Part shown: positions 48,925 through 64,000 of the stretch, piece by piece | How the letters are laid out: the number at the start of each line of letters is the position of its first letter | Numbering within the stretch: the stretch's first letter is position 1 | DNA from: Halioglobus maricola | Lineage (GTDB): Bacteria > Pseudomonadota > Gammaproteobacteria > Pseudomonadales > Halieaceae | DNA: 64,000 nt | Assembly: GCF_009388985.1 (NCBI RefSeq) | Contig: NZ_CP036422.1 | Span: forward strand, 3,114,501 to 3,178,500 | Reading direction: 5' to 3' | Notes under the pieces: model-generated | What the model saw: only the letters and a program-made list of their open reading frames with translations | Databases searched by the model: none | Told to the model about the DNA's origin: nothing | Translations under genes and position numbers: made by a program

Positions 48925-49106
48925 GCCACGAATCGTTAGCGGCTTCGCTCACTGAGCGCTAGTTCGGTAATTTTTAATAAACATCCACTAGAATTCCGCT
49001 GAATTATTCCGTATAACTTCATGTTATATAAAGAATAAGGGGCACCGCTTCGAAATTGGGCAGAGAGCGGGCTTCACGACTATAAACGGGCATTCAGGGC
49101 GAATTG

Positions 49107-50813
49107 GTGGCACAACACACCGTACTCATCATCTCAGAGAACCAGACAGACCACCTGGTACTGTCGGAATGCCTTGAGCGCTCGCCTCTCAAGCAGTTTC
49201 AGCTGGCAAACTCCGAATCGATGGAGCGCCCGCTGGAGGCCCTGCTAGACCCGGCTATTGATGTCGTCATCATGTCCTACGGCCCGGAGACCGAGTACCT
49301 GCTCCGATTGGCCCAGAAGCATGACGCTACAATTCCCCTGATACTAGTACTGGATAACCCCGAACAGACCACACTGGAACAGCTGCGGGACCTTGGCGCG
49401 CAGGACTACCTGATTCGCGGCCAGATTCAGGACGCTCTCGTTCACCGCATTCTCGATTACTGCATCCAGCTCAAGCAGGCCAAGGACAAAATCCAGCAGT
49501 TGTCCAATCGCGACAGCCTCACCGGCGCACTCAACCGCGTCGGCTTCCGCGCGCATCTTGAGCGCGCTATGGAACGCTCCTCGCGCTACGGATTCAATAC
49601 TGCCCTCCTCTATATCAACATGGATCAGTTCGCCAATATCAACGACCACTACGGCGAGGCGGATGGCGACCTACTGATAAAAACGATTTCACGCAGGCTG
49701 ATCAACAAGATGCGCAGCACCGACAGTATTGCGCGCCTCGGCGGTGATGAATTCGCAGTAGTGCTCGAAGACGTTAACTCGTTTGCTGACGTTGAATTGA
49801 TTGCCGAAAAAATGCTCAAGTCCATCGCCGCACCCATGATCCTGAGTGAGCAACAAGTCTCTATCGACGCCAGCATCGGCGCGGCGATGTATCCGGATGA
49901 CAACAAAGAGTTTTCCGAGCTTGTAGAGAGTGCTCGCAGCGCGATGCAGCAGGCCAAGACCGTTGATGGCAACAAGTTTATTCGCTACTCCGAGCAACTG
50001 ACCTTTGACGATTCCGGCGCCACCTCGCTGGCGGCAGAACTCCGCACCGCGGTGCGCAAAAATCAGTTTGAGCTGCACTACCAGCCCCGCGTCGACCTGG
50101 AAACAGGTGCGCTGGTGGGCCTTGAAGCGCTACTGCGCTGGAACCACCCGGAGCGGGGTCTCCTCTGCCCAGGTGAATTCCTGTCTGCCTGCGAAGATAT
50201 GGGCCTGATGAAAACCATCGGTTACCAGGTGATTCAACACGCTTGCGCAGCCCAGGTCTGGATCGAAGAACAGGGTATTCGCAATGTGGATGTTGCTGTC
50301 AACATCTCCTTCTCCCAGATTCAGGACGATCGCTTCGTAGACATCGTCAAGGACATCATCAGCCGCACCGGCACCGATGCCTCCAAACTTGAACTTGAGT
50401 TGACCGAGACCACGATTCTCAAGAGCCCGGATGCGATTAAAGAGCGAATGGATGAACTGCGCCTACTGGGCGTCTCTTTCTCGCTGGATGATTTTGGCAC
50501 CGGGTTCTCGCAGCTTTCGCACCTGACCGAGCTACCGATTTCTGCCCTGAAGATTGACGCCTGTTTTGTACGTGACCTGCCCTACAATGCGCACCAGGAA
50601 GCCGTGTGCACCATGATCATCGAGATGGCTCGCCGTCTGGGTATGTTAGTGGTTGCAGAGGGCGCAGAAACCTATGAGCAGGTGGAATACCTGCGCGAGA
50701 AACACTGCCAGCAGGTGCAGGGTTTTTACTACAGCCCGGCAATACCGCTACAACAAATCCCCCGTTTTGTGGAAGAGCAGCGCCTCAAGCGCAACGACCC
50801 ACTCTTTTCCTGA
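49107..50813 (+). CDS. Pseudo-receiver/GGDEF/EAL c-di-GMP enzyme
   Basis: This protein of about 568 residues has three domains. Residues 1-125 look like a receiver, but the acceptor aspartate position reads VVIMSYG and the acidic pocket is SENQTD, so it is probably not phosphorylated. The GGDEF domain (about 145-300) has an intact RLGGDEF and an RxxD inhibitory site (RSTD) five residues before it. The EAL domain (about 310-560) has GLEALLRW, ELTET, DDFGTGFS, LKID and VVAEGAET, so hydrolysis of c-di-GMP is expected. The start is GTG with AGGG seven bases before it; a TTG one codon earlier is possible. Its stop abuts the stop of the convergent cyclase gene. Confidence 0.93.
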   Translation: MAQHTVLIISENQTDHLVLSECLERSPLKQFQLANSESMERPLEALLDPAIDVVIMSYGPETEYLLRLAQKHDATIPLILVLDNPEQTTLEQLRDLGAQDYLIRGQIQDALVHRILDYCIQLKQAKDKIQQLSNRDSLTGALNRVGFRAHLERAMERSSRYGFNTALLYINMDQFANINDHYGEADGDLLIKTISRRLINKMRSTDSIARLGGDEFAVVLEDVNSFADVELIAEKMLKSIAAPMILSEQQVSIDASIGAAMYPDDNKEFSELVESARSAMQQAKTVDGNKFIRYSEQLTFDDSGATSLAAELRTAVRKNQFELHYQPRVDLETGALVGLEALLRWNHPERGLLCPGEFLSACEDMGLMKTIGYQVIQHACAAQVWIEEQGIRNVDVAVNISFSQIQDDRFVDIVKDIISRTGTDASKLELELTETTILKSPDAIKERMDELRLLGVSFSLDDFGTGFSQLSHLTELPISALKIDACFVRDLPYNAHQEAVCTMIIEMARRLGMLVVAEGAETYEQVEYLREKHCQQVQGFYYSPAIPLQQIPRFVEEQRLKRNDPLFS

Positions 50814-52058
50814 TTACTTTCTCGAGCCTGGCCAGGCTACGCGATTGCGCCCCCCGCGCTTGGCGCGATAGAGCTGCTTGTCGGCTGCCGCAAGCACTTC
50901 CTCGGGCGTCTGCAAATCGTCGTCGCGATTGGCAATCCCCGCACTGACCGTGACATACACCGATTCAGCAGAGAGCCGTGTAGCGCCACGGCGGCGCGTG
51001 CCCTCTTTTGCTTTGACCGGGCGCTTGCCCTGATCACGAATAGACATACGGTAATTTGATATCCCCTCCCGCGCCTTATCCAGCGCGCCGGCGCATTCGT
51101 CCGCCGACTTCCGCGGGAAGACAACGCAAAACTCCTCACCACCATAGCGGTAAGCTGTGCCGCCGCCCCCAACCCGGCGAATACGCGAAGCGACAAGCTT
51201 GAGCACCTCGTCGCCCACGTCATGGCCATGGGTGTCGTTGAATTTCTTGAAATGGTCGACATCCACCATCGCGATACTATAGTTGCGCCCAAGGCTTTGC
51301 AGACGCTCGTTAAGCGCCCTGCGACCCGGCAAGCCAGTGAGTTCGTCGCGATAAGCCATGGAATGCGAGCCACGCAGTAACCCCCAACCCACCGACAGCA
51401 GGCCGGCACACGCCATCACAACAGAAATATACTCGAGATGGAGAAATGCGAGCGCACAGAAACCTGCCAGCAGCGCCCCGAATAAGGCGCTCTCTGTTTC
51501 ATCGTCGCGCGCCAGCACCAGATAGATCGCGACCAGGGCCGCCCCTGCAATCAGCCAGGACACCGCGCGTGAGAGCATGTACTCCTCATGCGTAGGCGCG
51601 GCGAATTTCTCCGCCCAGACAGCCTCAGTGGTGCCTATCCAACCCGACGCCGCATAGCAAAGCCCCAGCAGCGCGGTGAATACGACAACCATCAGCAAAC
51701 TACGCAGCGTGAGCAAGCCATAGTCCCGCACCACCAGCAGATAGGTGATACCCACAGCGAGGGCCAGACCGGCAAAAAGAAAGAGCTGACCGGCTGCCGG
51801 CTGGGTCAGGCTCACCTGCAGGTGGAACTTGATCAGTAAATAGAGGCCAGTAGAGGCCAGCGCAGCCAGCGCCAGACGCAGACGATTAAACATCCACGCC
51901 AGCCCACAGCAGATAAGGCAGAGGAAATAAGGTAAATAGTCGAGGAAAATACTGGCTTCCTGCCCCAACTGAGAGGCAAAGCTGCGCGCCCACATAGCCA
52001 GCGCAACGAGCAACAAAGGAACCACCAGCCTGTATCCTGCAGACAGATGTACTCGCAT
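50814..52058 (-). CDS. Membrane diguanylate cyclase (GGEEF)
   Basis: This protein of about 414 residues has six or seven hydrophobic helices in its first 240 residues and a C-terminal GGDEF domain with MAYRDELTGLPGRRALNERL, DVDHFKKFNDTHGHDVGDEVL and an active RYGGEEF. The RxxD inhibitory site is replaced by glycines, so product inhibition is unlikely. A basic loop (about 360-385, Lys/Arg-rich) is inserted before the last strands. The ATG at 52058 is chosen; a GTG at 52097 would add 13 residues. It senses an unknown signal within the membrane. Confidence 0.9.
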   Translation of the reverse strand: MRVHLSAGYRLVVPLLLVALAMWARSFASQLGQEASIFLDYLPYFLCLICCGLAWMFNRLRLALAALASTGLYLLIKFHLQVSLTQPAAGQLFLFAGLALAVGITYLLVVRDYGLLTLRSLLMVVVFTALLGLCYAASGWIGTTEAVWAEKFAAPTHEEYMLSRAVSWLIAGAALVAIYLVLARDDETESALFGALLAGFCALAFLHLEYISVVMACAGLLSVGWGLLRGSHSMAYRDELTGLPGRRALNERLQSLGRNYSIAMVDVDHFKKFNDTHGHDVGDEVLKLVASRIRRVGGGGTAYRYGGEEFCVVFPRKSADECAGALDKAREGISNYRMSIRDQGKRPVKAKEGTRRRGATRLSAESVYVTVSAGIANRDDDLQTPEEVLAAADKQLYRAKRGGRNRVAWPGSRK

Positions 52059-52189
52059 GCTCAGTCCGTCACTCCCCCATAAATGATTCTGCTCCACCGA
52101 TAACCCCGATGCTTTTATTATTCGGGCTAGGCGGGCGTTGTTAGTGATGATAGCCTACCTCACTCTCAAAAAATTTTCCGCTTCTAATC

Positions 52190-54001
52190 ATGCCCAGCGA
52201 CGACCGCGCTCACTACCGCGCCAAAATTCTAGTTTGCGACGACGACTTCAACGTTCGTCTTCTCACACGCCAGTGTCTGGAAGCAGAAGACATGGTGGTA
52301 GTCGAGGCCGCCGATGGCACCGAGGCGCTGGATGTGTTCGCTCGAGAGCGCCCCGACCTTGTGTTCCTCGATGTTGAAATGCCTGGAATGACTGGCCTGG
52401 AAGTCTGCCAGCGCATTCGCCAGATGCCTCAGGGTGAATCGATCCCGATCATGATTGTGACGGGTTCCGATGACCGCAAGTCCATCGACCAGGGCTTTGA
52501 AGCCGGCGCCACCCAGTACAAAACCAAGCCCGTCAACTGGTCACTCCTGGGCCGCGACGTGCAATATATGCTGCGCGCCTCCGACGCATTCAACTCGCTC
52601 AAACGTCAGGAAGACCGCCTGCGTTACCTCGCCTACTACGACCCGCTCACCAGCCTGCCCAACCGGCGCAGCTTCAACGAGCAGTTGAATCGAATTCTGA
52701 AACGCTGTCGCCGACACGAAACCGGTGCTGCGCTTCTCTTTATCGACCTTGACCATTTCAAACGCATCAACGATTCCATCGGTCATAGCCGTGGCGATCG
52801 CCTGTTGGTAGAGATTGCCAAGCGGCTCACGGTAGAACTGCGCGAAGACGACGCGATCAACTACTACACCGACAATGACGCAAGCACAGAGGAAGCCTTC
52901 ACCAGCAACACCGAGATCGCGCGCCTGGGCGGCGACGAGTTCACTGTTGTACTGTCCGATGTGAACGACATCAGCCACATCGAAAAAGTGGCCAAGCGCA
53001 TACTGCACACACTGTCGGAACCTATTTCACTGCAATCGCACAATCCGGTGGTAACCCCAAGTATTGGTATCGCAGTCTTCCCGCAGGACGGCGAGGATCC
53101 CGATGCCCTGATCCGCAATGCCGACACGGCCATGTATGTAGCCAAGGCCGCCGGCCGCGCATGCTTCCGCTTCTACAATGAGGAAATGAACGCGCGTGCC
53201 GTGGAACAGCTCAAGATGGAAGAAGAGCTGCGCTACGCAATGAGCAGCAATCAGCTGGAACTTCGCTACCAGCCCCAGATCGATACCCGCACCGGCGCGG
53301 TGGTTAGCATGGAGGCCCTGATGCGCTGGAAGCATCCGGAGCGCGGCATGATCTCGCCACTGGATTTTATCCCGGTTGCCGAGCGTACCGGCCAGATCAT
53401 CGAACTGGGTGACTGGGTACTGGGTGAGGTAGACCGCCACTGCCGCTACTGGGACTCCCTCGGGTTGCCAGAATTTCGGGTGTGCGTGAATATCTCACCC
53501 ATCCAGTTCAACCAGGACGACCTGCCCCGACGCATCAAGCGCTTTCTGGATAATGCCAAACTTCCAGCCAGCCGCCTCGAGCTGGAACTCACAGAGAGCG
53601 CGATCATGACCGATGCGCCGGCAAACATTAAGAAACTCGGACAGTTGAAGGAACTCGGGCTGGATGTGGCCGTGGACGACTTCGGTACCGGCTACTCCTC
53701 GTTGAGCTATCTGAAGCGTTTCCCCATCGACACGCTGAAGATTGACCAGAGCTTCGTAGCAGACCTGGACACCACCGACGGTGCGGGCATTGTCGATGCG
53801 ATTATCGCGCTTTCCAACACCTTGAACCTGCGTGTTATTGCCGAGGGCATAGAAGAGAAGCCTCAATTGGATTATCTCGTCGCCAAAGGCTGCCACCTGC
53901 TCCAGGGCTACTTCTTCGCCCGACCTCTCTACCCCGAAGACGTACCAGACATGCTGCAGCAGAATTTCTCCCAGGACCTTATTCCTGCAGAGCAGCACTG
54001 A
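52190..54001 (+). CDS. Response regulator REC-GGDEF-EAL
   Basis: This 603-residue protein starts with a complete receiver domain: CDDDF acidic pocket, acceptor D61 in LVFLDVEMPG, IVTGSD and YKTKP. It is followed by GGDEF (about 135-320) and EAL (about 335-590) domains. RLGGDEF is intact, but about 20 acidic residues are inserted between REDD, which would be the inhibitory site, and the GGDEF motif. The EAL part has SMEALMRW, ELTES, DDFGTGYSS, LKIDQSF and VIAEGIEE, so both activities may be present. No kinase gene is adjacent; phosphorylation presumably comes from elsewhere. Confidence 0.95.
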   Translation: MPSDDRAHYRAKILVCDDDFNVRLLTRQCLEAEDMVVVEAADGTEALDVFARERPDLVFLDVEMPGMTGLEVCQRIRQMPQGESIPIMIVTGSDDRKSIDQGFEAGATQYKTKPVNWSLLGRDVQYMLRASDAFNSLKRQEDRLRYLAYYDPLTSLPNRRSFNEQLNRILKRCRRHETGAALLFIDLDHFKRINDSIGHSRGDRLLVEIAKRLTVELREDDAINYYTDNDASTEEAFTSNTEIARLGGDEFTVVLSDVNDISHIEKVAKRILHTLSEPISLQSHNPVVTPSIGIAVFPQDGEDPDALIRNADTAMYVAKAAGRACFRFYNEEMNARAVEQLKMEEELRYAMSSNQLELRYQPQIDTRTGAVVSMEALMRWKHPERGMISPLDFIPVAERTGQIIELGDWVLGEVDRHCRYWDSLGLPEFRVCVNISPIQFNQDDLPRRIKRFLDNAKLPASRLELELTESAIMTDAPANIKKLGQLKELGLDVAVDDFGTGYSSLSYLKRFPIDTLKIDQSFVADLDTTDGAGIVDAIIALSNTLNLRVIAEGIEEKPQLDYLVAKGCHLLQGYFFARPLYPEDVPDMLQQNFSQDLIPAEQH

Positions 54002-54010
54002 TTCAAACCC

Positions 54011-55975
54011 ATGAGATTGATGGCCCACACAAGGGCGATACTGACAGCCGCCATCGCGGCTACCAGCCTCTGCACCAGCGCGAGCGAAGAGCACCTCCAT
54101 GTCATGCTGCAGGGCGAGTCTGCATCAGCCATGGCCGACCTCGTGCAAGCTCAAGGTGGCGAACTCACGCACAAACTACCGGTTATCGATGCCGTTGGCG
54201 CCCAGCTGAGCCGCGCCCAACTTGATGCCATTCTCACGTCAGATGAAGTACTACGCCACATCGACGATCTCGCGTTTGATCCTCCGGACGATAACCGCCC
54301 TGAACGGACCAGCTGTGATGTAGGCGGCTATCTGCAGTTGCAGTTCGATGAACTCGGCCTGGAGTGGCAGCTCCTCAATAAGACCGACAAAGCCGTCAGG
54401 GCCAGCCAGCTTACCCTGGACTGGCCGCATGAGTGGGGCGCTGCCACCATGCTGTCACTGGGTGACACCCAATGGACAGGGAGCCAACTTCCCTCAGCAC
54501 CGGGCGGGCTCACACTGAACTTTACAGGCGACAAAGCGCCAGCACTGCGAGGAAGCGGCCACCTGAAAGTACGCTTTGCCAATTCCAGCAAGAGGCCCGG
54601 CCCTGAACGCCAGAACCTCTTCAGCAGCGAAATCACCTTTGGCCCCGACTGCACACTATCCAGCCCACCCGCCTATCCCGACAATCACAACGATTTTTAC
54701 TACGCCACTGTCACTGGGGCCGACAACCTGCATAGACACCATATCCGCGGCCAGGGCGTAACTGTGGCCATGCTCGATTCAGGACTCTGGGAACATGACA
54801 GCCTCGCACTAGACACATCAGGCGCTCCACGCGTGGTAGCGCGCTACGACGCCATCAGCGGCCACGAAGTCAACGAGGCCTTCGACGAAAGCGGACACGG
54901 ATCGCACTTGACCAGCGTGCTCGCCCACAGTGGCCCTACGCTAAGAGATGGCAAAGCCACCGGCACCTACAAGGGCATTGCCCCGGATGTGAAGCTCGCC
55001 GTCATCAAGGCGTTCAATGTAGAAGGCCAGGGCGGCATGCTCGACATCGTACGCGGCGTCCAGTGGGCCATCGACAACCAGGCGAAACACAATATCCGCG
55101 TGCTGAACCTGTCTTTCGCTTCCCGCCCGCGCTGGCCCTACTTCCTGGACCCGGTAAACCAGGCTGTTATGCGCGCGTGGCAGGCAGGTATTGTCGTAGT
55201 CGCAGCCGCCGGTAACGAAGGCCCCGAGCCGATGTCTGTCGGTTCTCCCGGCAACCTCCCCTACATCATCACCGTGGGCGCCGTCACCGACTCATGGACA
55301 CCACTGGACCGGTCCGACGACTACGTACCCGACTTTTCCTCACGAGGACCCACACCGTCGGCGCACATCAAACCCGATATCGTTGCCCCCGGCGGCCACA
55401 TGACCGGACTAACTCGCCCGGGCTCCAGCCTCACCACCGATCACCCCGAATATCTGCTCGATACCGGCGAGTTCGTGATGACTGGATCGTCCCAGGCTGC
55501 CGCACTGGTATCGGGATTGGTGGCACTGCTGCTGCAGCTGGAACCTCAGCTGACGCCAGACAATGTCAAATGCATGCTGACGAGCTCCGCTGATCCCGCG
55601 ATCAACCGCGATGGGCTATTGGCCTACAGCCCCTTCGAGCAAGGCCAGGGCTACGTGAGCGTGACCCGGGCACTCACCCTGGGCGCCAGAGATTGCGCCA
55701 ACGAGGGCCTTAACCTGGAGCACGACATTTCCGGAAAAGACCACTTTGAAGGCCCCGCCGTAATGTCAGAAGATGGCGAGATCACCCTGCCCGGCCTCGA
55801 GCAAATGCTCTCCCCCGCACCGCCCGCCAAAGGCGCGAGCGATATCCGGACCTGGGGTGTTAAAGCCCATATCGAAAGACTCCCTCCCGGCGCCAGTGAC
55901 AGCCCAGATTCACCCTTCAATTGGGAGCAGCTGTACCAAATCGAGAAAAAACGCATGGAGGAGATAGGTAACTAG
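54011..55975 (+). CDS. Secreted S8 subtilisin-like serine protease
   Basis: This 654-residue protein has a signal peptide (to about residue 24), an inhibitor I9-like propeptide (HVMLQGESASAMADLVQAQGG), a beta-rich module (about 100-215) and a subtilisin domain. The triad is visible: D256 (VAMLDSGLW), H296 (ESGHGSHLTS) and S494 in GSSQAAALVSG, with the oxyanion asparagine in AAGNEGPEP. The serine motif reads GSSQAA instead of the usual GTSMAA. The C-terminal 100 residues are Pro/Glu-rich and unrecognised. It starts nine bases after the response regulator gene, and may be a type II secretion substrate. Confidence 0.93.
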   Translation: MRLMAHTRAILTAAIAATSLCTSASEEHLHVMLQGESASAMADLVQAQGGELTHKLPVIDAVGAQLSRAQLDAILTSDEVLRHIDDLAFDPPDDNRPERTSCDVGGYLQLQFDELGLEWQLLNKTDKAVRASQLTLDWPHEWGAATMLSLGDTQWTGSQLPSAPGGLTLNFTGDKAPALRGSGHLKVRFANSSKRPGPERQNLFSSEITFGPDCTLSSPPAYPDNHNDFYYATVTGADNLHRHHIRGQGVTVAMLDSGLWEHDSLALDTSGAPRVVARYDAISGHEVNEAFDESGHGSHLTSVLAHSGPTLRDGKATGTYKGIAPDVKLAVIKAFNVEGQGGMLDIVRGVQWAIDNQAKHNIRVLNLSFASRPRWPYFLDPVNQAVMRAWQAGIVVVAAAGNEGPEPMSVGSPGNLPYIITVGAVTDSWTPLDRSDDYVPDFSSRGPTPSAHIKPDIVAPGGHMTGLTRPGSSLTTDHPEYLLDTGEFVMTGSSQAAALVSGLVALLLQLEPQLTPDNVKCMLTSSADPAINRDGLLAYSPFEQGQGYVSVTRALTLGARDCANEGLNLEHDISGKDHFEGPAVMSEDGEITLPGLEQMLSPAPPAKGASDIRTWGVKAHIERLPPGASDSPDSPFNWEQLYQIEKKRMEEIGN

Positions 55976-56320
55976 CTGTAATTGCTTACATGACCGACTC
56001 GCGTACATTACCCCTCACGGGTCAATCTTTAACCAGCCCCCTCCATTTCGGCCAATAGCTTTTATTTTTCAACAGCTTAGAGCCACCCCCGCAAGCCCGA
56101 AACATACTTTCCAGTCCTAACCACCAGCCCGAATAACCCAAAATGGTTATATGGTGTGGTTTATTTTGGTTAGTTGTTACTCGTATAACGAAGTCAAGCA
56201 CCGCTAGAGAAGAGTGTGACCCAGGTCGCAAAGACGACCCTAATCAACCCGAATAACCAGATGCGCGTCACATTTTCCCCGCGCGCATGCATTCCCAGTC
56301 TGTAAAAAAGGTAGGCAAAC
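55976..56320 (+). promoter_or_regulatory. Leader region of the repeat-protein gene
   Basis: This 345-base stretch contains no supported gene. It holds the 11-mer CCCGAATAACC twice (56128-56138 and 56248-56258, 120 bases apart), and a palindrome ATAACC/GGTTAT (56133-56150) that overlaps the first copy. These are candidate regulator sites. AAGGTAGG lies about six bases before the downstream ATG. No clear promoter was identified. Confidence 0.4.
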
Positions 56321-56950
56321 ATGAACGCTATGAAGAACATCAAAAACTTGGGTCTCGGCAGCATTGCAGTCGTGATGATGGCGACGTCCGCGGCAACTGT
56401 TGCAGAAGTTTCACAGCCGAACATAACCACAGGTGCCGGCGGCCATAGCCTTGTGAAGCGGGTTACGTATTCTTTGGCGGAGTCAACCTCCTACACTCGC
56501 TCGGAAACCACTGGGTACAAGTGGGGCAAAAGAACTGAAGCTAGCACTCAAGCCTTCAAGTGGGGCAATGCAGATCATAGTCGAAGCGGCTATAAGTGGG
56601 CTGATAAAGGCTCCAAAAACCTGAGCTCAGAACAGACAGTGATGACGTCGGCCGCCTACCAGTGGGGCTCTAAGAGCTTCTCTGAGCAGTCTGCCTTCAA
56701 ATGGGGGCTCAAATCCTCAGGCGAGCAGAGTGCTTTCAAATGGGGCCTCAAGTCCTTCGGAGAGCAAAGTGCATTCAAGTGGGGGCTTAAGTCTTCTCAC
56801 GATCAGAGTGCATTCAAATGGGGTCTCAAGTCTTTCGGCGAGCAAACAGCGTTCAAATGGGGTTTGAAGTCATTTTCCGAGCAAAATGCATTTAAATGGG
56901 GCCTCAAGTCTTATTCCGAGCAGAATGCATTCAAGTGGGGTCTCAAATAG
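56321..56950 (+). CDS. Exported protein with tandem 13-residue AFKWGLK repeats
   Basis: This 209-residue protein has a signal peptide (to about residue 28, ATSAATVA-EV). A non-repetitive stretch with scattered degenerate copies (GYKWGK, AFKWGN, GYKWAD) precedes a regular array from residue 112 to the end: one AYQWGSK copy and then seven with the invariant core AFKWGLK. The linker consensus is S-S/F-G/S-E-Q-S/N. The repeat is cationic and aromatic. There is no cysteine in the array and no recognised domain; the last copy is cut at LK, right before the stop. It may be a structural matrix protein or a multi-copy peptide precursor. It lies between a secreted protease and a giant sensor kinase. 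Confidence 0.88.
   Translation: MNAMKNIKNLGLGSIAVVMMATSAATVAEVSQPNITTGAGGHSLVKRVTYSLAESTSYTRSETTGYKWGKRTEASTQAFKWGNADHSRSGYKWADKGSKNLSSEQTVMTSAAYQWGSKSFSEQSAFKWGLKSSGEQSAFKWGLKSFGEQSAFKWGLKSSHDQSAFKWGLKSFGEQTAFKWGLKSFSEQNAFKWGLKSYSEQNAFKWGLK
56654..56947 (+). repeat. 39-bp coding tandem array (seven full units and one partial)
   Basis: Units begin at 56654, 56693, 56732, 56771, 56810, 56849, 56888 and 56927, each 39 bases apart with no indel. Codons for the invariant residues differ between units (glycine as ggg, ggc and ggt; leucine as ctc, ctt and ttg; lysine as aaa and aag). The protein motif is therefore conserved beyond simple DNA copying. Confidence 0.9.
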
Positions 56951-57044
56951 CATTCAGCCTCTAGTCAGCGCCTTTCGCTGTCTTTACACATATTTTCATC
57001 GCTACATTTAGCCGCGACATCTGAAAAAGTCCGGCTAGGCTTTT

Positions 57045-57085
57045 GGCGCGGAGACTCTAGGGCCGCCTACCCCTAGCTCCGCGCC
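57045..57085 (+). terminator. Strong hairpin after the repeat-protein gene
   Basis: GGCGCGGAG (57045-57053) pairs with CTCCGCGCC (57077-57085), and inside it CTAGGG (57057-57062) pairs with CCCTAG (57071-57076), giving 15 pairs with a three-base bulge. Only GACTTTA follows, so termination is plausible but not classical. It lies about 95 bases after the repeat-protein stop and just before a new promoter. The rest of 56951-57171 shows nothing more. Confidence 0.5.
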
Positions 57086-57113
57086 GACTTTACTCCAAAT
57101 CTTCACTTCCCTT

Positions 57114-57143
57114 TTGAAATCTGTGTCAACAATGACATAGAAT
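57114..57143 (+). promoter_or_regulatory. Promoter of the hybrid kinase gene with internal palindrome
   Basis: TTGAAA (57114-57119) and TAGAAT (57138-57143) are 18 bases apart. Between them TGTCA and TGACA (57124-57137) form a small inverted repeat that could bind a repressor. The kinase ATG is 28 bases downstream. Confidence 0.4.
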
Positions 57144-57171
57144 TCTTACTCCGAATAAAAAGAAGCTAGGC

Positions 57172-60100
57172 ATGCAGCGCGTATTTCTAATCATTGTTCT
57201 GTCATGGGTCGCTAGCTCCTCACTCGCGTTCGATCAACATCGCTATATTAGATTCAGTAAATCCGCGATTTCAGATCAGCTTACTCAGCAAACCGTACGA
57301 CAGATTCATCAGGACTCACAAGGCGCTCTATGGCTCGTAACTCAAGAGGGACTTACCAAATACACCGGCAGACATCTCGAAAGTTTCACTTCGTCTGCAA
57401 GCATCCATGATTCCCTAACGTCAGACACCGTCTCAGGCATCGATGAGGATAATGATGGCAACCTATGGGTAGCTACGCATGGGGGAGGGCTAAATCTTTA
57501 CAACCGGGTCACCAATGGATTTTCAGCTTTTCGCTACAATCCGGCGGATAAGAACTCTCTATTATCGGACGATATACAGTCAATATTCGCGGACAATAGC
57601 GGCAAAATTTGGGTCGGATATATTGATAGAATTAGTGTCCTCGATCCAAGTAAGCGAACATTCTCGCACCTCATCCCAGACAACCGGAAAATACCCAACT
57701 TCGGTATCGTATACGCATTCGATCAAGCCAAAGATGACGATGTGATCTGGGCAGCAACTCAACGCGCCGACCTGGTCAGTATCAAGGAGAATGGACTATC
57801 GATAGAGGCCCATGAGCTCCAGACTACTTCAGAGATGCCGTCAGAGAAACCCAGGGTGACATACATCGAAGCCTACTCCAAAGACGTCATTTGGATAGGG
57901 ACAGAGAATCACGGAGTCTATAAGTATAGCCCTACCACAAAAAAAGTAACTCACTACGGACACGAAGAAGACGACCTCGATTCAATTTCCAGCAACAATG
58001 TCACTGAGATCTTTATCGACTCACAACAGAACACCTGGTTTGCAACGCAGACTGGGCTAAATCTCTACAACCCCGAAAACGACAATTTCATACGCTACTC
58101 AGAACAGAACTCGGGGCTCCCTGAAATTGCCGTGTATTCCATTTATCAATCGAGAGACGGGCAATACTGGGTTGGCACCCTTCACGGACTAGCTAGCGGT
58201 AGTGAAAATAGATTTGAAGCTTACGACGAAATCCGGGGCGGGCTGTCGAGCAACTCAGTGAACGCGTTCGCCAGAACCTCAGATGGCAGTCTTTGGGTCG
58301 GCACAGATCGCGGGCTTAACAGGTTACGCAGTGACTCCGAGAGATTTGAATGGATAAATCCATTCACCGAGCCAGGTATCTCATCTGACACTGTAATGAG
58401 CCTTCTCGGAGAAGAGCAGCATCTCTGGGTGGGAACCTATGATGGAGGACTAAACCGGCTCAACCTTGAAACAAATGACATCGACATCTATCGCCATTCG
58501 CCACTATCAGAGGGCACCATCAGTAGCAATGGAGTGACATCACTCTTGCGACTATCGAGCGGCGAACTACTAGTTGGCACATACGGTGGAGGATTAAACG
58601 TCTACCACGATGAAAGCGGCTCATTTACTCATTTCCAACATGACGAATATGACATTCAAAGCATTAGCGACGATCGCGTGCTAGCAATGATCGAAGACAG
58701 TCTGGGTTATATCTGGATTGGAACGCAAAATGGACTGAACAGATTCTCGTTAGAAGACGGCACATTTTCCCGTATCTACGCTGATAACCAGATTCCAAAA
58801 AGCATCGAAAGCGACATGGTGTGGTCCTTTCAAGAAGACAATGAGGGCACGCTGTGGCTAGGCACTGCAGGTGGTGGTATTTCTCGCTGGAGAAGTGACT
58901 ATCGAACAGAACTTCGACCAGTTTTTGACAATGGCCTACCGAACATTACGCTGCCAAGCTCGAGCATCTATGGCATTCAAATCGACTCATCGAATAGTTT
59001 GTGGCTATCACACAACAGGGGGCTCACTAGACTCGACCCATCACTTGCATCTTCCACAAATTTTGGAATAGAGGATGGACTGCAAGCTCTAGAATTCAAC
59101 ATGGGAGCATCTTTCCAGGACTCTGACGGTAAGATTCTCTTTGGAGGAGTCTCAGGGTTCAATGTTGTAGATCCAGCCCTAATTCAACCTCGTGAAAGTC
59201 TGCCGGAAGTATCCATCTACTCTATCAAGGTAATGAATGAACTCCGAACCTTCGATGTACCTTACCATGAGCTCAATAAGCTCGAGCTGAGCTACGAAGA
59301 CAAAATGCTATCGATAGAGTTCTACGCAGCAGAGTTTTCTGCCCCTGAGCTTGTTCAATATGCATACAAGATTGAGGGACTAAATTCGACTTGGAATATT
59401 TCTCCAGACTCACGAATCGTATCTGTCACAACCTTACCACCAGGCTCATATACGCTAAAACTTGCCGCGGCTAGTACTGCTGGCGATTGGAACTGGGATG
59501 CTCTCAGCCTTCCAATCGTCGTCTCACCACCACCGTGGCAGAGCCCGTTAGCGTATCTTTCTTACACCGCTCTATTTTCATTCATGATCGCGATGTACAT
59601 ACGCGGCCAGCGACGACAAACAGCTCTCGCCATCGAAAGACAACATGAACTCACGCGAATGGTGGAGGAGAGAACGCAAGACCTTCAAGAAGCGCGCGTT
59701 ATTGCGGAATCTGCAAACACCGCGAAATCACAGTTTCTGGCAACGATGAGCCATGAGATCAGAACCCCAATGCATGGGATGATCGGCATGACCGAGTTAC
59801 TGCTGCACACCGAGCTAGATGAGCAACAGCGCCAGTTCGCCACAGCAGCGCATAAGAGTGGTAATGCGCTTTTAGACCTAATAAACGAAATACTCGACTA
59901 CTCTAAGCTAGAAGCGTCAAAAGTTGAGTTAGAAAATATAGAATTCAGCCTAACCGCATTACTTGACGAAGTGTGCTATCTACAGGCAGAACCAGCTGCT
60001 CGCAAAGATCTAGACATTAATATAATTATAGGCAGCTCTGTCTCTAGTGGTTACAGAGGAGACCCTACCAAAATTCGCCAGGTTGTAATGAACCTCGTAA

Positions 60101-61608
60101 GCAATGCAATAAAATTCACTCATCACGGTTGCGTTGATGTCTTGGCTTCGACCAAAGCTCATGGAAATATGGATGAACCCGATCTAGTACTGATTTCAGT
60201 GCGCGATGACGGAATCGGCATGGATGAACAGACACAGTCAAAGATCTTTGACGCTTTCACCCAAGCCGATGCTAGCACTACGCGGCAGTACGGAGGAACG
60301 GGACTTGGGTTATCTATTTCGAAGCATTTCGTGGAAATTATGGGCGGCGAAATAGACATCCGATCAGAGAGCGGTGTCGGAACCGAAATTTCTATTGCGA
60401 TTCCACTATATTCAATGCCCGAAAATGAACTGCCTATGACTAGAGAATCCAAGCCTGTGTACATTGCGACATCGTCGCCGGCTTTCTTCAAAATGGTTGA
60501 AAGTCATTTGACATACATGAATGTCGATTGCGAATGGCACGATGACTTAAAGACAATAGAGCAGCAAGGAATATATATTGCTGATTTCAATGATATCAAA
60601 GACTTTCCGAAGCTCGCTGAACACATTCAAGAAGACGAAGGCACGCATGGATATTTAATGCTGCGCGTGAACGAGACTCCGCCGCCATCTGCTGCGAGCT
60701 CCTGGTCAGTCATGTCTAAACCATTTACGCTTGAAAACGCAGCTGATATCTACGACTCAGTTCGATCAAACATAGGTCTAAATGAAGCAGAACCGCACCA
60801 ACCTCAAGAAGGAGTCGGTCGAAAATTGTCCATATTGGTTGCTGAGGATGTGACGACCAATCAAGAAATCGTAGTTGAAATGCTTAGCATGCTCGAGCAG
60901 GAAGTTACGATTGCAGAAAACGGCGCGGACGCACTTCGCAAGTATCAGAGCACGCCATTTGACTTAATTCTTATGGATTGCCAAATGCCAATCATGGATG
61001 GATTCCGAGCCACTGAAAATATCAGAAAATTTGAACGGGAGAGCAATCTAAGTTCGTCGAAAATAGTCGCTCTTACCGCAGGAATAAACCCCACCGACAG
61101 AGAGAAATGCGTAAAAGCCGGAATGGATCATTTTATCTCAAAACCGTTCTCCATAGATGACATCAAGCAAGCAATAGATCTCACTAGGCAAAGTACGCCA
61201 GATACTGAAATCAATTTCGAACTCAAGGGCTCCGTATCGCCACCCCCCCAAAGGCTCCATGAAATTCTCGACACTAAGGCAATTTCTAACATTCTCGAAG
61301 TCGAAAGATCGACGGGCAAACCGCTGCTCTCGAGAGTTTTCGATGGATACAAGAGTCAGTTCTCGCAAAAAATCGGCGAGATAGAAGACCATATCGGCGC
61401 CGATAACTATGAAGAAACCGCTCGCGCCGCCCATGCGATAAAGTCACTAAGTGCCAACGTTGGTGCTACTAAAGTTCGAAGCATTAGCTCCGCCATTGAA
61501 GATGCAGCAAAGATTAAAAGTAGCTTATCTATGGTGTCAAATTTAGAAATTCTGCGCACTGCCGATCGAGAATTTCAAGCTGAATTCCAGAAACAGTATA
61601 TCGCCTAG
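57172..61608 (+). CDS. Hybrid sensor histidine kinase with two beta-propellers, REC and Hpt
   Basis: This 1478-residue protein has, in order: a signal peptide; 14 Reg_prop blade motifs of the LWVGT-GLNRL type, enough for two seven-bladed propellers (about 25-670); a Y_Y_Y domain (about 700-785); one membrane helix (about 792-812) and a coiled coil; HisKA with H861 ([10 protein letters not shown]); an ATPase domain with N974 and GGTGLGLS near 1042; a degenerate receiver (about 1085-1185); an intact receiver with D1269 ([11 protein letters not shown]); and an Hpt domain with H1421 (AAHAIKSL). It should sense an extracellular or periplasmic ligand and relay phosphate to a separate regulator, since no DNA-binding output is present. 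Base composition is clearly lower in GC than the core. Confidence 0.95.
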
Positions 61609-61728: not shown

Positions 61729-64000
61729 ATGCCTCGCCAGAAACAAAACCCGATTGTCTTGATCGTGGCATTGTGCCTCTTCGCTACTCCCGTTTTTGCA
61801 AGCACGGGCTATCAGATCGTCACACCACAATTCGTCAAGCAAATTGCCCAACCAACTATCACATCACTAATGCAGGATTCTCTCGAGAACCTTTGGATCG
61901 GCACACAAGAAGGTCTGTATAGGTTCAACGGAACCACTCTTTCGTCATATCGTGAAGGGATATCTAAGAGTGGCCCGATTCACTTCTCGGATATTCGAGG
62001 CATAGTTGAGTCGCAGAATGGCCAGATTCTTGTAGCTGCGTATGGGATCGGAATTGTCTCTATATCGCAAAAATCGAGCCAAGCTACTTTGGCGTTCGAA
62101 GATCAAGACATCAGCCTCAATTCTGTAACTGGAATTTCCAAAGGTCCAAATGGCACCATCTGGATAACTACAAGAAGTGATGTATTCCGCCTGCAAGCTA
62201 ACCAACGAATATCGAAAATCGAACTTGGAATGACTGAGCCAAAGGAATCCGCGGAGTTGCTGTACATCACCCACACTAGAAATGGTGATACGTATCTTGG
62301 AGGCTCCTTTGGTCTTGCAAAATATTCTCGCAAAACCAATTCTTTTCGCATCGATACATCTCTAATCAGGGACGAACACATTGTAGCTCTAGGTGAGGGA
62401 CCGGAAAACTCTATTATTGCTGCCACACAATCTGGCCAGATCTATCAAATCCCTAGCAATTCCGCGACATCTCCATCGTCCAAAATTCTCGATGTCGAAC
62501 AGGGTCTGCATATATCTAAACTAGCTACTAACAAAGAAAGGTTCTATATAGCCACCAATAGAGGAATCTACATATATTCATCAAACTTCTCTCTTTTTTC
62601 TGTTATTAGATCAAAAGACTCCGCACTGGGGAATGACGCCATAATGAGCTTGCTCTTCGTCGGCGAAGACATCTGGATAGGTACATTCCAGGGGTTATTT
62701 GCTGCAACAGAAAGGGAAGTCGAACTCTACAACAAGTCTAACGCAGAAATACACGACGAGGTCTTATCCTTTACACAGGATGCCGAAGACTACCTTTGGA
62801 TTGGAACCTACAATGGACTTTATCGGGCCAACTTCAAGGGAGAACAACACTACCCTTTTGGAAGGATATACCAGTCGAAACTTACAGATCACCGGGTAAT
62901 GTCTCTGGCCAGCGACAAGGATAAACTTTGGATAGGCTATCAAGAACACGGCGTTGATCTGGTTGACCTTAGCACGGGGAAAGTCACCCGGCCTTTACCG
63001 GAGGGTACAGAGAATTTCGCGGTCACAGCAATACTTCCTACTGAATCGAATACTGTATGGATTGCCACATACAACTTAGGACTCTACCGACTTTCAGGTC
63101 AGGTATTGAAGCGCTTCAGGTCTCTTGGCGAGCCATCAGTTACTGTAATAGCTCAAACCAGCAGTGGCTCGATTTACACCGTGACTGAAAAAAATTTGTA
63201 CCGACACAATGCTAGTACGGACGAGTTCCAAAGAGTCGACCTAGAGTTCGATTCATTGGAAGAGACACCACGAATCCTATCATTCGCTGAACATCCTAAC
63301 GGAGCCATTTTTCTAGGAACCAAAGACCACGGACTATTTGAACTAAATGGCGAGTTCCAGCATCTCACAGGACCGGTAAAAGCTATTGCAGTTTCAAAGC
63401 TCTCAATGAGCAATACAATTTATAGTATCGAGATCGACTCTACAGGCCAAATTTGGACTGCCACAGAGGAAGGAATTCGTGTTTTCAGCGCGAACAAAAA
63501 GCCACTGCGACACCTACTCGTTAGAGACGGCCTACAGGGCAACGACTTCAATTTCGGGGCTTCATTAGTCGACCGAGAAGGAAATTTGCTGTTTGGCGGA
63601 GTTAATGGATACAACAAAATTACGCCTAACAAGGTATCTACGGATATGGTTCCGCCTGTCCTCCGGATCACAAACATTCGAACTCTTTCTGATAATATTC
63701 AAACAAACTTTGAAAACAGCAATGGAAGAGCTTATCTAGATTACACTGACGAGTTCATCATGTTTCAGTTTTCGGTCTTGGACTACATCGCACATGATTC
63801 ATACAAGTATCGATATCGACTAATAGGGTTCAAAGACGAGTGGATCTACTCTGGATTCGAGCACTCAGCAACCTACACGAACTTACCTGCAGGGCTTTAT
63901 AGATTTGAGGTACAGTCGACCAACCTTTCAGGCGCCTGGACAAATAATCCAACGAAAGTTGATCTAATAGTTAACCAATCTCCTTGGTTAACTCCATGGG
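61729..64000 (+). CDS. Second beta-propeller sensor protein, 3' end outside window
   Basis: The frame is open from the ATG at 61729 to the window edge (757 codons). A signal peptide (LIVALCLFATPVFA) is followed by 14 Reg_prop blade motifs (such as LWIGTQEGLYRF, IWIGTFQGLF and LLFGGVNGYN) and a Y_Y_Y domain (YRYRLIGFKDEWIYSG to VNQSPWLTPW). The sequence stops just where a membrane helix is expected, so kinase or other output domains lie beyond the edge. It is a clear paralogue of the upstream kinase's sensor part, with only 120 bases between them. Confidence 0.88.
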   Translation, partial: MPRQKQNPIVLIVALCLFATPVFASTGYQIVTPQFVKQIAQPTITSLMQDSLENLWIGTQEGLYRFNGTTLSSYREGISKSGPIHFSDIRGIVESQNGQILVAAYGIGIVSISQKSSQATLAFEDQDISLNSVTGISKGPNGTIWITTRSDVFRLQANQRISKIELGMTEPKESAELLYITHTRNGDTYLGGSFGLAKYSRKTNSFRIDTSLIRDEHIVALGEGPENSIIAATQSGQIYQIPSNSATSPSSKILDVEQGLHISKLATNKERFYIATNRGIYIYSSNFSLFSVIRSKDSALGNDAIMSLLFVGEDIWIGTFQGLFAATEREVELYNKSNAEIHDEVLSFTQDAEDYLWIGTYNGLYRANFKGEQHYPFGRIYQSKLTDHRVMSLASDKDKLWIGYQEHGVDLVDLSTGKVTRPLPEGTENFAVTAILPTESNTVWIATYNLGLYRLSGQVLKRFRSLGEPSVTVIAQTSSGSIYTVTEKNLYRHNASTDEFQRVDLEFDSLEETPRILSFAEHPNGAIFLGTKDHGLFELNGEFQHLTGPVKAIAVSKLSMSNTIYSIEIDSTGQIWTATEEGIRVFSANKKPLRHLLVRDGLQGNDFNFGASLVDREGNLLFGGVNGYNKITPNKVSTDMVPPVLRITNIRTLSDNIQTNFENSNGRAYLDYTDEFIMFQFSVLDYIAHDSYKYRYRLIGFKDEWIYSGFEHSATYTNLPAGLYRFEVQSTNLSGAWTNNPTKVDLIVNQSPWLTPW

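Follow-up and report, generated by a model that had tools for sequence, protein, structure and literature searches.

What is the function of an exported protein that ends in seven copies of one 13-residue unit and is encoded between a protease and a large sensor kinase? The question is raised by a locus of Halioglobus maricola in the window that we analyzed (the whole stretch of 64,000 nucleotides from contig NZ_CP036422.1; all coordinates are window positions). An earlier note on this DNA had offered two answers, a fiber or matrix protein and a precursor cut into many short, cationic, tryptophan-containing peptides. We favor a multi-copy peptide ligand that would be processed by the protease, read by propeller sensors, and fed into c-di-GMP control, a reading to which we give an even chance of being correct. 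The repeat protein is laid out as follows:

56321 to 56950, plus strand: open reading frame of the repeat protein, 209 amino acids, ATG start, TAG stop at 56948 to 56950
56321 to 56404, plus strand: signal peptide, by eye and from an alignment of homologues
56405 to 56674, plus strand: leader of the repeat protein, a conserved block and degenerate WG copies, from the alignment
56675 to 56947, plus strand: seven 13-residue units S-x-x-[ED]-Q-x-AFKWGLK, the last reaching the stop codon

The N terminus reads by eye as a Sec-type signal peptide of about residues 1–28 (...SAATVA|E), and we agree with the earlier note that the protein is probably exported. The seven invariant AFKWGLK cores that the note described are present at an exact 13-residue period in residues 119–209, the last core forming the C terminus, and the degenerate WG copies N-terminal to them read GYKWGK, FKWGN, YKWA, and YQWGS. 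Since TRF finds a 39-bp period with only 76% matches between copies, codons differ among the units, and within-array counts for the core (pS 0.819, pN 0.017) bear out the proposal that the motif is held by selection. No other locus of this repeat type occurs in the whole 4,306,437-base genome.

Does the repeat belong to a known family? The Leptospira KWG repeat, curli, and other functional amyloids are exported and contain short repeats with WG or Q. The window protein differs from these in having no Pfam match at E ≤ 1, whether to the KWG and WG repeat families, as the earlier note had anticipated, or to the curlin repeat model. NCBIfam likewise gives no family at E ≤ 1 and PHROGs no match, and no solved structure is convincing, so within these collections the note's statement that the repeat has no known family stands. 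A sequence search of the PDB returned 9iaq at an unconvincing E of 1.3. We attribute a profile match to lysostaphin (6rk4, E 8.6e-4) to common period and composition rather than homology, the source presumably being the 13-residue prolysostaphin repeats. On plasmids, no protein match was found, and DNA matches of the locus are confined to an EAL gene.

All eight genomes of the genus encode the repeat protein (the G006 copy is cut by a contig end), as do 27 of the 37 Halieaceae genomes in a wider sample; among other families of that sample, the single match in 21 genomes (E 0.9) is taken as chance. A profile search of genome contigs with alignment A1 recovered 29 named loci where a single-protein query had found none. 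The named relatives are Halieaceae (HTCC2148, Seongchinamella sediminis, S. unica, Pseudohalioglobus lutimaris, Haliea, Parahaliea, Chromatocurvus, Kineobactrum, Mangrovimicrobium, and others), and further relatives are MAGs named only as Gammaproteobacteria. Each lineage has one core dialect: AFKWGLK, AYKWGLR, GYKWGLR, AYRWALR, GYRWGVR, GYKWGIR, GYKWGFR, GYKWSIR, GYKWRIN, GYIWGIR, GNRWGRR, GSKWGRR, ASRWIIR, and more. The invariant or nearly invariant alignment columns include the W and the Q five residues before it.

If the units of an array are so alike, is this due to selection on each copy or to homogenization of the DNA? We pooled 50 arrays that have period 13 and four or more units, excluding period-12 and shorter arrays; 13 named genomes were passed over because of contig ends, a missing array, or the choice of a wrong frame. 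The core has pS 0.392 and pN 0.0055, a contrast in which the residues from W−1 to W+1 are biased toward no change because units were chosen by them; the four core positions outside this selection have pN 0.004–0.017. The linker has pS 0.463 and pN 0.128, with pN 0.027 at its Q. Core pN is 0 in 33 of the 50 arrays and core pS exceeds 0 in 48. Array pS spans 0 to 0.875, and the low end indicates that some arrays are recent amplifications; many others, the window's included, hold their amino acids with far-drifted codons, which argues for selection per copy and not for DNA homogenization.

The earlier note had also asked whether the array decays without constraint. Most relatives keep a constrained array, with the exception of G299 and G315, where the place between the subtilase and the kinase is taken by a small, seemingly exported protein that has single W motifs but lacks an array. 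At L154 and L156 (minus strand, about 0.5–1.0 kb from the start), a small protein of about 105–108 amino acids contains a single QWGSTP and ITWPST; this array-less protein, found in two genomes of one genus, is perhaps a reduced form. At L149 (G297, a one-contig genome), the subtilase match falls into two pieces in different open frames and the last array unit is altered, reflecting either sequencing errors or decay of the locus.

Copy number, which the earlier note had proposed to compare, ranges in relatives from 2 to about 20 units, with a short form of 2–3 units in one genus (G030, G271, and G273). The period is 13 in 50 of 52 accepted, stop-closed arrays. At L119, L131, and L136, from three relatives, it is 12, one core residue apparently having been lost. 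Such lengths, and the period of 12, are easier to reconcile with an array of peptides than with one fold. Period-13 arrays end exactly three residues past the last W in 47 of 50 cases (46 by script and G002 by eye; the exceptions are G297, G353, and G366), after G006, G008, and G031 were dropped as wrong picks; the closed period-12 arrays of G362 and G364 end two residues past it. This common end phase can be simple inheritance, and we give it little weight.

What surrounds the array gene? Its neighbors in the window are:

49104 to 50813, plus strand: GGDEF-EAL protein (Pfam), with homologues near the locus in many Halieaceae
50814 to 52097, minus strand: GGDEF protein (Pfam), probably with a membrane segment as judged by eye; some of the relatives also have it close to the locus
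52190 to 54001, plus strand: response regulator with GGDEF and EAL domains (Pfam; synteny), candidate c-di-GMP output
54011 to 55975, plus strand: S8 subtilase (PF00082, E 7.8e-47), probably exported, by eye
57172 to 61608, plus strand: hybrid kinase HK1 (Pfam), with Reg_prop repeats, Y_Y_Y, HisKA, HATPase, receiver, and Hpt domains
61729 to 64000, plus strand: second Reg_prop/Y_Y_Y sensor (Pfam), truncated by the window end

The subtilase has a Peptidase_S8 domain with catalytic motifs visible by eye, and HK1 unites Reg_prop repeats, a Y_Y_Y domain, a kinase, and a receiver on a single polypeptide, as expected of a Reg_prop/Y_Y_Y hybrid sensor. A search of this genome for Y_Y_Y genes found just two, and they directly follow the array gene; the same holds in G003. 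Between the repeat gene and HK1, an inverted repeat, GGCGCGGAG...CTCCGCGCC, can be seen by eye at 57045–57085 without a clear T-run after it.

Upstream of the repeat gene lie three candidate regulatory sites:

56009 to 56024, no strand assigned: dyad copy TACCCCTCACGGGTCA, operator candidate
56134 to 56149, no strand assigned: dyad TAACCCAAAATGGTTA, operator candidate, about 187 bp before the ATG
56215 to 56230, plus strand: TGTGA-N6-TCGCA box in the leader, which we take to be CRP-like

Within the window, the pattern TAMCCC-N5-GGKTA with at most one mismatch occurs only at the two dyads, giving four strand-wise matches against a chance mean of 1.35; 6 of 100 shuffles also reach four. In 22 homologous upstream regions, a looser dyad pattern is found in 19 (mean 0.07 in shuffles) and the CRP-like box in 12 (0.05), with the caveat that these loose patterns were drawn after viewing the alignment and compared with plain letter shuffles. 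The two dyad copies are perhaps the site of some regulator. A scan of 55900–57250 for Rfam-type RNA elements gave no riboswitch match; a SCARNA8 match inside the array (E 0.46) was put down to chance, and a scan for consensus promoters and terminators gave counts no higher than in shuffles.

Is the neighborhood maintained in relatives? The subtilase is upstream of the repeat gene in all 26 loci found by the repeat protein itself. At E ≤ 1e-40, the subtilase is present in 84 of 140 family genomes; it occurs in 63 of the 78 with at least 90% completeness and at most 5% contamination, and in a sample of the order (244 genomes) it occurs in 10 genomes of the family and 1 of another (G249). Of 49 Halieaceae loci that could be tested, 42 have an HK1 homologue starting within 1.2 kb past the repeat gene (at 1.4 kb in G276), a count that excludes G006, G008, G016, G031, and loci without a detected array and sets aside 14 loci with fewer than 1500 bases past the stop, several of which end inside the array. 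Against a ligand, six genomes of one genus have no HK1 past the repeat gene; five of them have an HK1 sensor match elsewhere (46–48% identity), and in G361 (87% complete) no such match was found. We count for a ligand the joint loss of the repeat gene and the HK1 sensor match in G008, where the subtilase is kept, the repeat gene was not found, the next gene resembles an enoyl-CoA hydratase (25% identity), and HK1 matches cover only the kinase and later parts. In G015, one locus (L206:325–13565) keeps the c-di-GMP genes and an HK1 homologue, with subtilase and array absent; a subtilase with its own repeat tail lies on another contig (L205), adjoining a Reg_prop-GGDEF gene.

In 12 relatives, W- or F-centered repeats are found inside the subtilase chain itself, at its C terminus:

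G013: GNYWNA, 56 copies
G015: SYFFND type, 8 copies
G290: SFVWND type, 8 copies
G249: GYIWNM, 14 copies, spacings 6, 12, and 44
G389: GYLWNN, 9 copies
G439: AYLWFD, 5 copies
G397: GDPWGGGY, 3 copies, spacings 12 and 46, not all in tandem
G1014 and G1032: [ND]AVIWRL type, 4 copies, spacings 11 and 22
G1036: EAFMWD, 9 copies
G1016: GGLIWKN, 6 copies, spacing 12
G967: EGVVWNN, 2 copies

G013, G015, and G290 are Halieaceae, and the GYIWNM-SDADNA unit of G249 resembles by eye the Halieaceae unit GYKWGIR-SNADQA. At strict cut-offs, tailed subtilases outside Halieaceae number 1 in 244 order genomes, 3 in 369, and 5 in 398 besides the window's own, and the subfamily therefore appears thinly spread; scanned against Pfam and NCBIfam, the window subtilase matched no described family of repeat-tailed type. 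Past the repeats, seven tails share a similar W-containing end motif (L080, L199, L207, L210, L211, L212, and L214, with INTWVDPQ, VNNWVDQQ, INNWVEPE, INLWVPAE, VNTWAPQE twice, and QESWLRQE). In a midpoint-rooted tree of the catalytic domain, in which two outgroup rows fill less than half of the columns and G008, missing its repeat gene, is counted as tail-less, a branch (95/100) sets the 21 tail-less subtilases apart from the rest, and the tailed ones do not come together in any supported single group. From these sequences, one change between fused and separate arrays, in either direction, seems likely.

In 10 of the 12 tailed loci, the gene immediately beside the subtilase, on one flank or on both, encodes a Reg_prop/Y_Y_Y sensor. 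The sensors are histidine kinases in G013 (both sides; L150 on the minus strand, L079, and L208, where a Reg_prop kinase flanks the subtilase with the tandem hexapeptides on either side) and also in G967 and G1036, where a receiver-GGDEF-EAL gene follows. They have GGDEF output in G015, G290, and G439, GGDEF-EAL output in G397, and weak GGDEF matches in G1014, G1016, and G1032 (23.2–24.8 bits, cut-off 23.8). G249 and G389 show no sensor on the side that can be read, and on the other side the contig ends; their single Y_Y_Y genes lie on other contigs. Y_Y_Y genes number one each in G397 and G439, two in G013, four in G015, and four or five in five genomes of family f185, and in G397 and G439 the only one found adjoins the tailed subtilase. 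With so few per genome, chance adjacency is unlikely, yet the tailed loci are not independent, five being of f185 and two of one Halieaceae genus.

Could the array form a surface fiber or matrix? Its aromatic units would stack as antiparallel β strands, much like a functional amyloid, with the subtilase required for maturation and the c-di-GMP genes and sensors controlling or monitoring the fiber. Consistent with this, c-di-GMP genes adjoin the locus, identical units suit self-assembly, and a 20-copy relative yields, in one of its five AlphaFold models, an antiparallel β-meander to which each unit contributes a strand (block-mean pLDDT about 75–85 over residues 301–370); the VIA-align matches of that model are generic barrels and sheets of many kinds (Z up to 10.7). 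The array may be structured, but we do not trust this model: the other four have mean pLDDT 32–43, Foldseek with the best finds nothing at E ≤ 0.001, and AlphaFold predicts no fold for the window protein (27 sequences; mean pLDDT 43.8, pTM 0.12). Also against a fiber are arrays of only 2–3 units, repeats that are fused to a protease and in some cases are hexapeptides without linker, and the absence of a secretion or nucleation gene among the window neighbors scanned. The fiber or matrix proposed in the earlier note, favored by a model of a relative and not by that of the window protein, is in our judgment unlikely, if still to be taken seriously.

It is also possible that the array is never cut and, as a multivalent ligand or adaptor, gathers propeller sensors into clusters, or that it tethers the protease to the sensors. 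The repeats that belong to the protease chain in relatives and the one core common to all units of an array would fit, but the array has a gene of its own, apart from that of the protease, in most Halieaceae that carry the locus, and we consider such a role improbable. More doubtful still is a decoy substrate or inhibitor, in which the repeats would occupy or inhibit the subtilase and the sensors would read protease activity; fusion and adjacency to the protease favor it, but by itself it explains neither the company of propeller sensors nor the common lineage-specific core, and we rate it very improbable. A multi-core precursor of an antimicrobial or modified peptide (RiPP), for which repeated Trp-containing cores and a protease would speak, is hardly credible, as no modifying enzyme is present among the window neighbors scanned and the units of fused relatives (SFVWND, EAFMWD, and AYLWFD) are neutral or acidic, which speaks against an antimicrobial peptide and also means that the cationic character named in the earlier note is not what the units have in common.

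How, then, might a peptide ligand work? The repeat protein would be a Sec-exported precursor containing many copies of one short Trp-centered peptide of the general form small, aromatic or aliphatic, x, W. The neighboring subtilase would cut it into short peptides or unit oligomers, which would be released, exported through the outer membrane, and bound by the neighboring Reg_prop/Y_Y_Y propeller sensors, either in the periplasm or on the cell surface. Sensor outputs of kinase or diguanylate-cyclase type would feed the c-di-GMP proteins of the locus, the peptide serving as a self-made signal of cell density or of the state of the envelope or of proteolysis. The precursor proposed in the earlier note gains from the adjoining subtilase, from its fusion to repeats in relatives, and from the propeller sensors beside it. 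What we observed is the architecture of the genes, their conservation, the selection on single units, the fusion to the protease, and the proximity of the sensors; cleavage, release, binding, and the c-di-GMP output are inferred from these.

Several observations stand against such a ligand. The array has no evident cleavage site, and the K/R within the core would also be open to trypsin-like cutting. The known ligands of such sensors are glycans, and the β-meander model of the 20-copy relative, the array-less proteins of G299 and G315, the lack of an adjacent sensor in G249 and G389, and the weak tails of G397 and G967 also count against it. Does the unit evolve with the sensor? Across 37 genomes, the partial correlation of unit and sensor given the kinase part is 0.31 for the core (permutation p 0.014) and 0.43 for the linker (p 0.0005). 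In a control of 20 genomes, unit distance correlates at 0.69 with the sensor and at 0.78 with the GGDEF-EAL protein, and the subtilase and the GGDEF-EAL protein show like partial correlation with the sensor; that the unit correlates no better with the sensor than with the GGDEF-EAL protein may speak against a ligand.

Parts of this design recall known systems. The agr and Phr systems of Gram-positive bacteria combine a peptide pheromone precursor, a protease, a receptor, and lineage-specific signal variants, all of which the proposed system would share, but their precursors and receptor classes are different. Cyanobactin precursors are multi-core and are processed by the subtilisin-like proteases PatA and PatG. 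The window locus resembles them in pairing a multi-core precursor with a subtilisin-like protease, but its subtilase scores 45.9 bits on the PatA model (cut-off 421.05), its precursor has a Sec-type signal peptide, and no modifying enzyme accompanies it among the neighbors scanned. Kex2 of fungi is also a subtilisin-family protease. One report describes fungal Kex2-processed repeat proteins (KEPs) as exported repeat precursors cut by Kex2, a class that includes pheromone precursors, among them yeast α-factor (PMC7329392). Like the window protein, KEPs have a signal peptide (by eye here) and tandem, near-identical short cores, a likeness in architecture. KEPs have a dibasic Kex2 site at unit borders, whereas the window units are joined K|S and RR precedes the border only in some relatives; the present system also differs in being bacterial, in having the protease gene adjacent or fused, and in its putative receptor, a propeller kinase or cyclase.

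For the sensors, the closest comparison is with Bacteroides. Four Bacteroides sensors with the Reg_prop-Y_Y_Y order bind oligosaccharides directly, as measured by ITC, and such sensors lie in glycan loci and sense oligomers cut from repeating polymers (PMC3243724). These hybrid sensors resemble HK1 in having periplasmic Reg_prop and Y_Y_Y domains before kinase and receiver; HK1 differs by having no AraC-type DNA-binding domain in Pfam, and its neighbors, in contrast to those of the glycan loci, are a protease, a peptide array, and c-di-GMP proteins. By analogy, sensing of oligomers would fit sensors of this domain order.

The repeat, the tailed subtilases, and their pairing with Reg_prop sensors are described in none of the matches listed from open-licence papers, in part the best 12 or 20 of many more, which is weak evidence of absence; the parts of the locus and their pairing appear new, and by kind they would be a variant of precursor-protease-receptor signaling. 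To our knowledge, Gram-negative bacteria rarely have dedicated peptide pheromones with receptors of their own, and we know of no ligand for most Reg_prop/Y_Y_Y sensors outside Bacteroides. Our findings suggest that the repeat protein, protease, and sensors constitute an undescribed Gram-negative peptide signaling system. More tentatively, and with somewhat less than even confidence, we propose a signaling family spread across several families of Gammaproteobacteria, in which short W-centered peptides released by a subtilase, from its own tail or, in Halieaceae, from a separate exported protein, would be read by propellers and set c-di-GMP, each lineage using its own dialect. The locus thus offers a concrete ligand candidate, protease, and receptor, linked to c-di-GMP in marine bacteria. 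The candidate ligand can be tested in the form of synthetic peptides of 7 to 13 residues (AFKWGLK, SFSEQSAFKWGLK, and the dialects of other lineages), and the same pairing elsewhere, with very different unit sequences, would provide a natural specificity panel.
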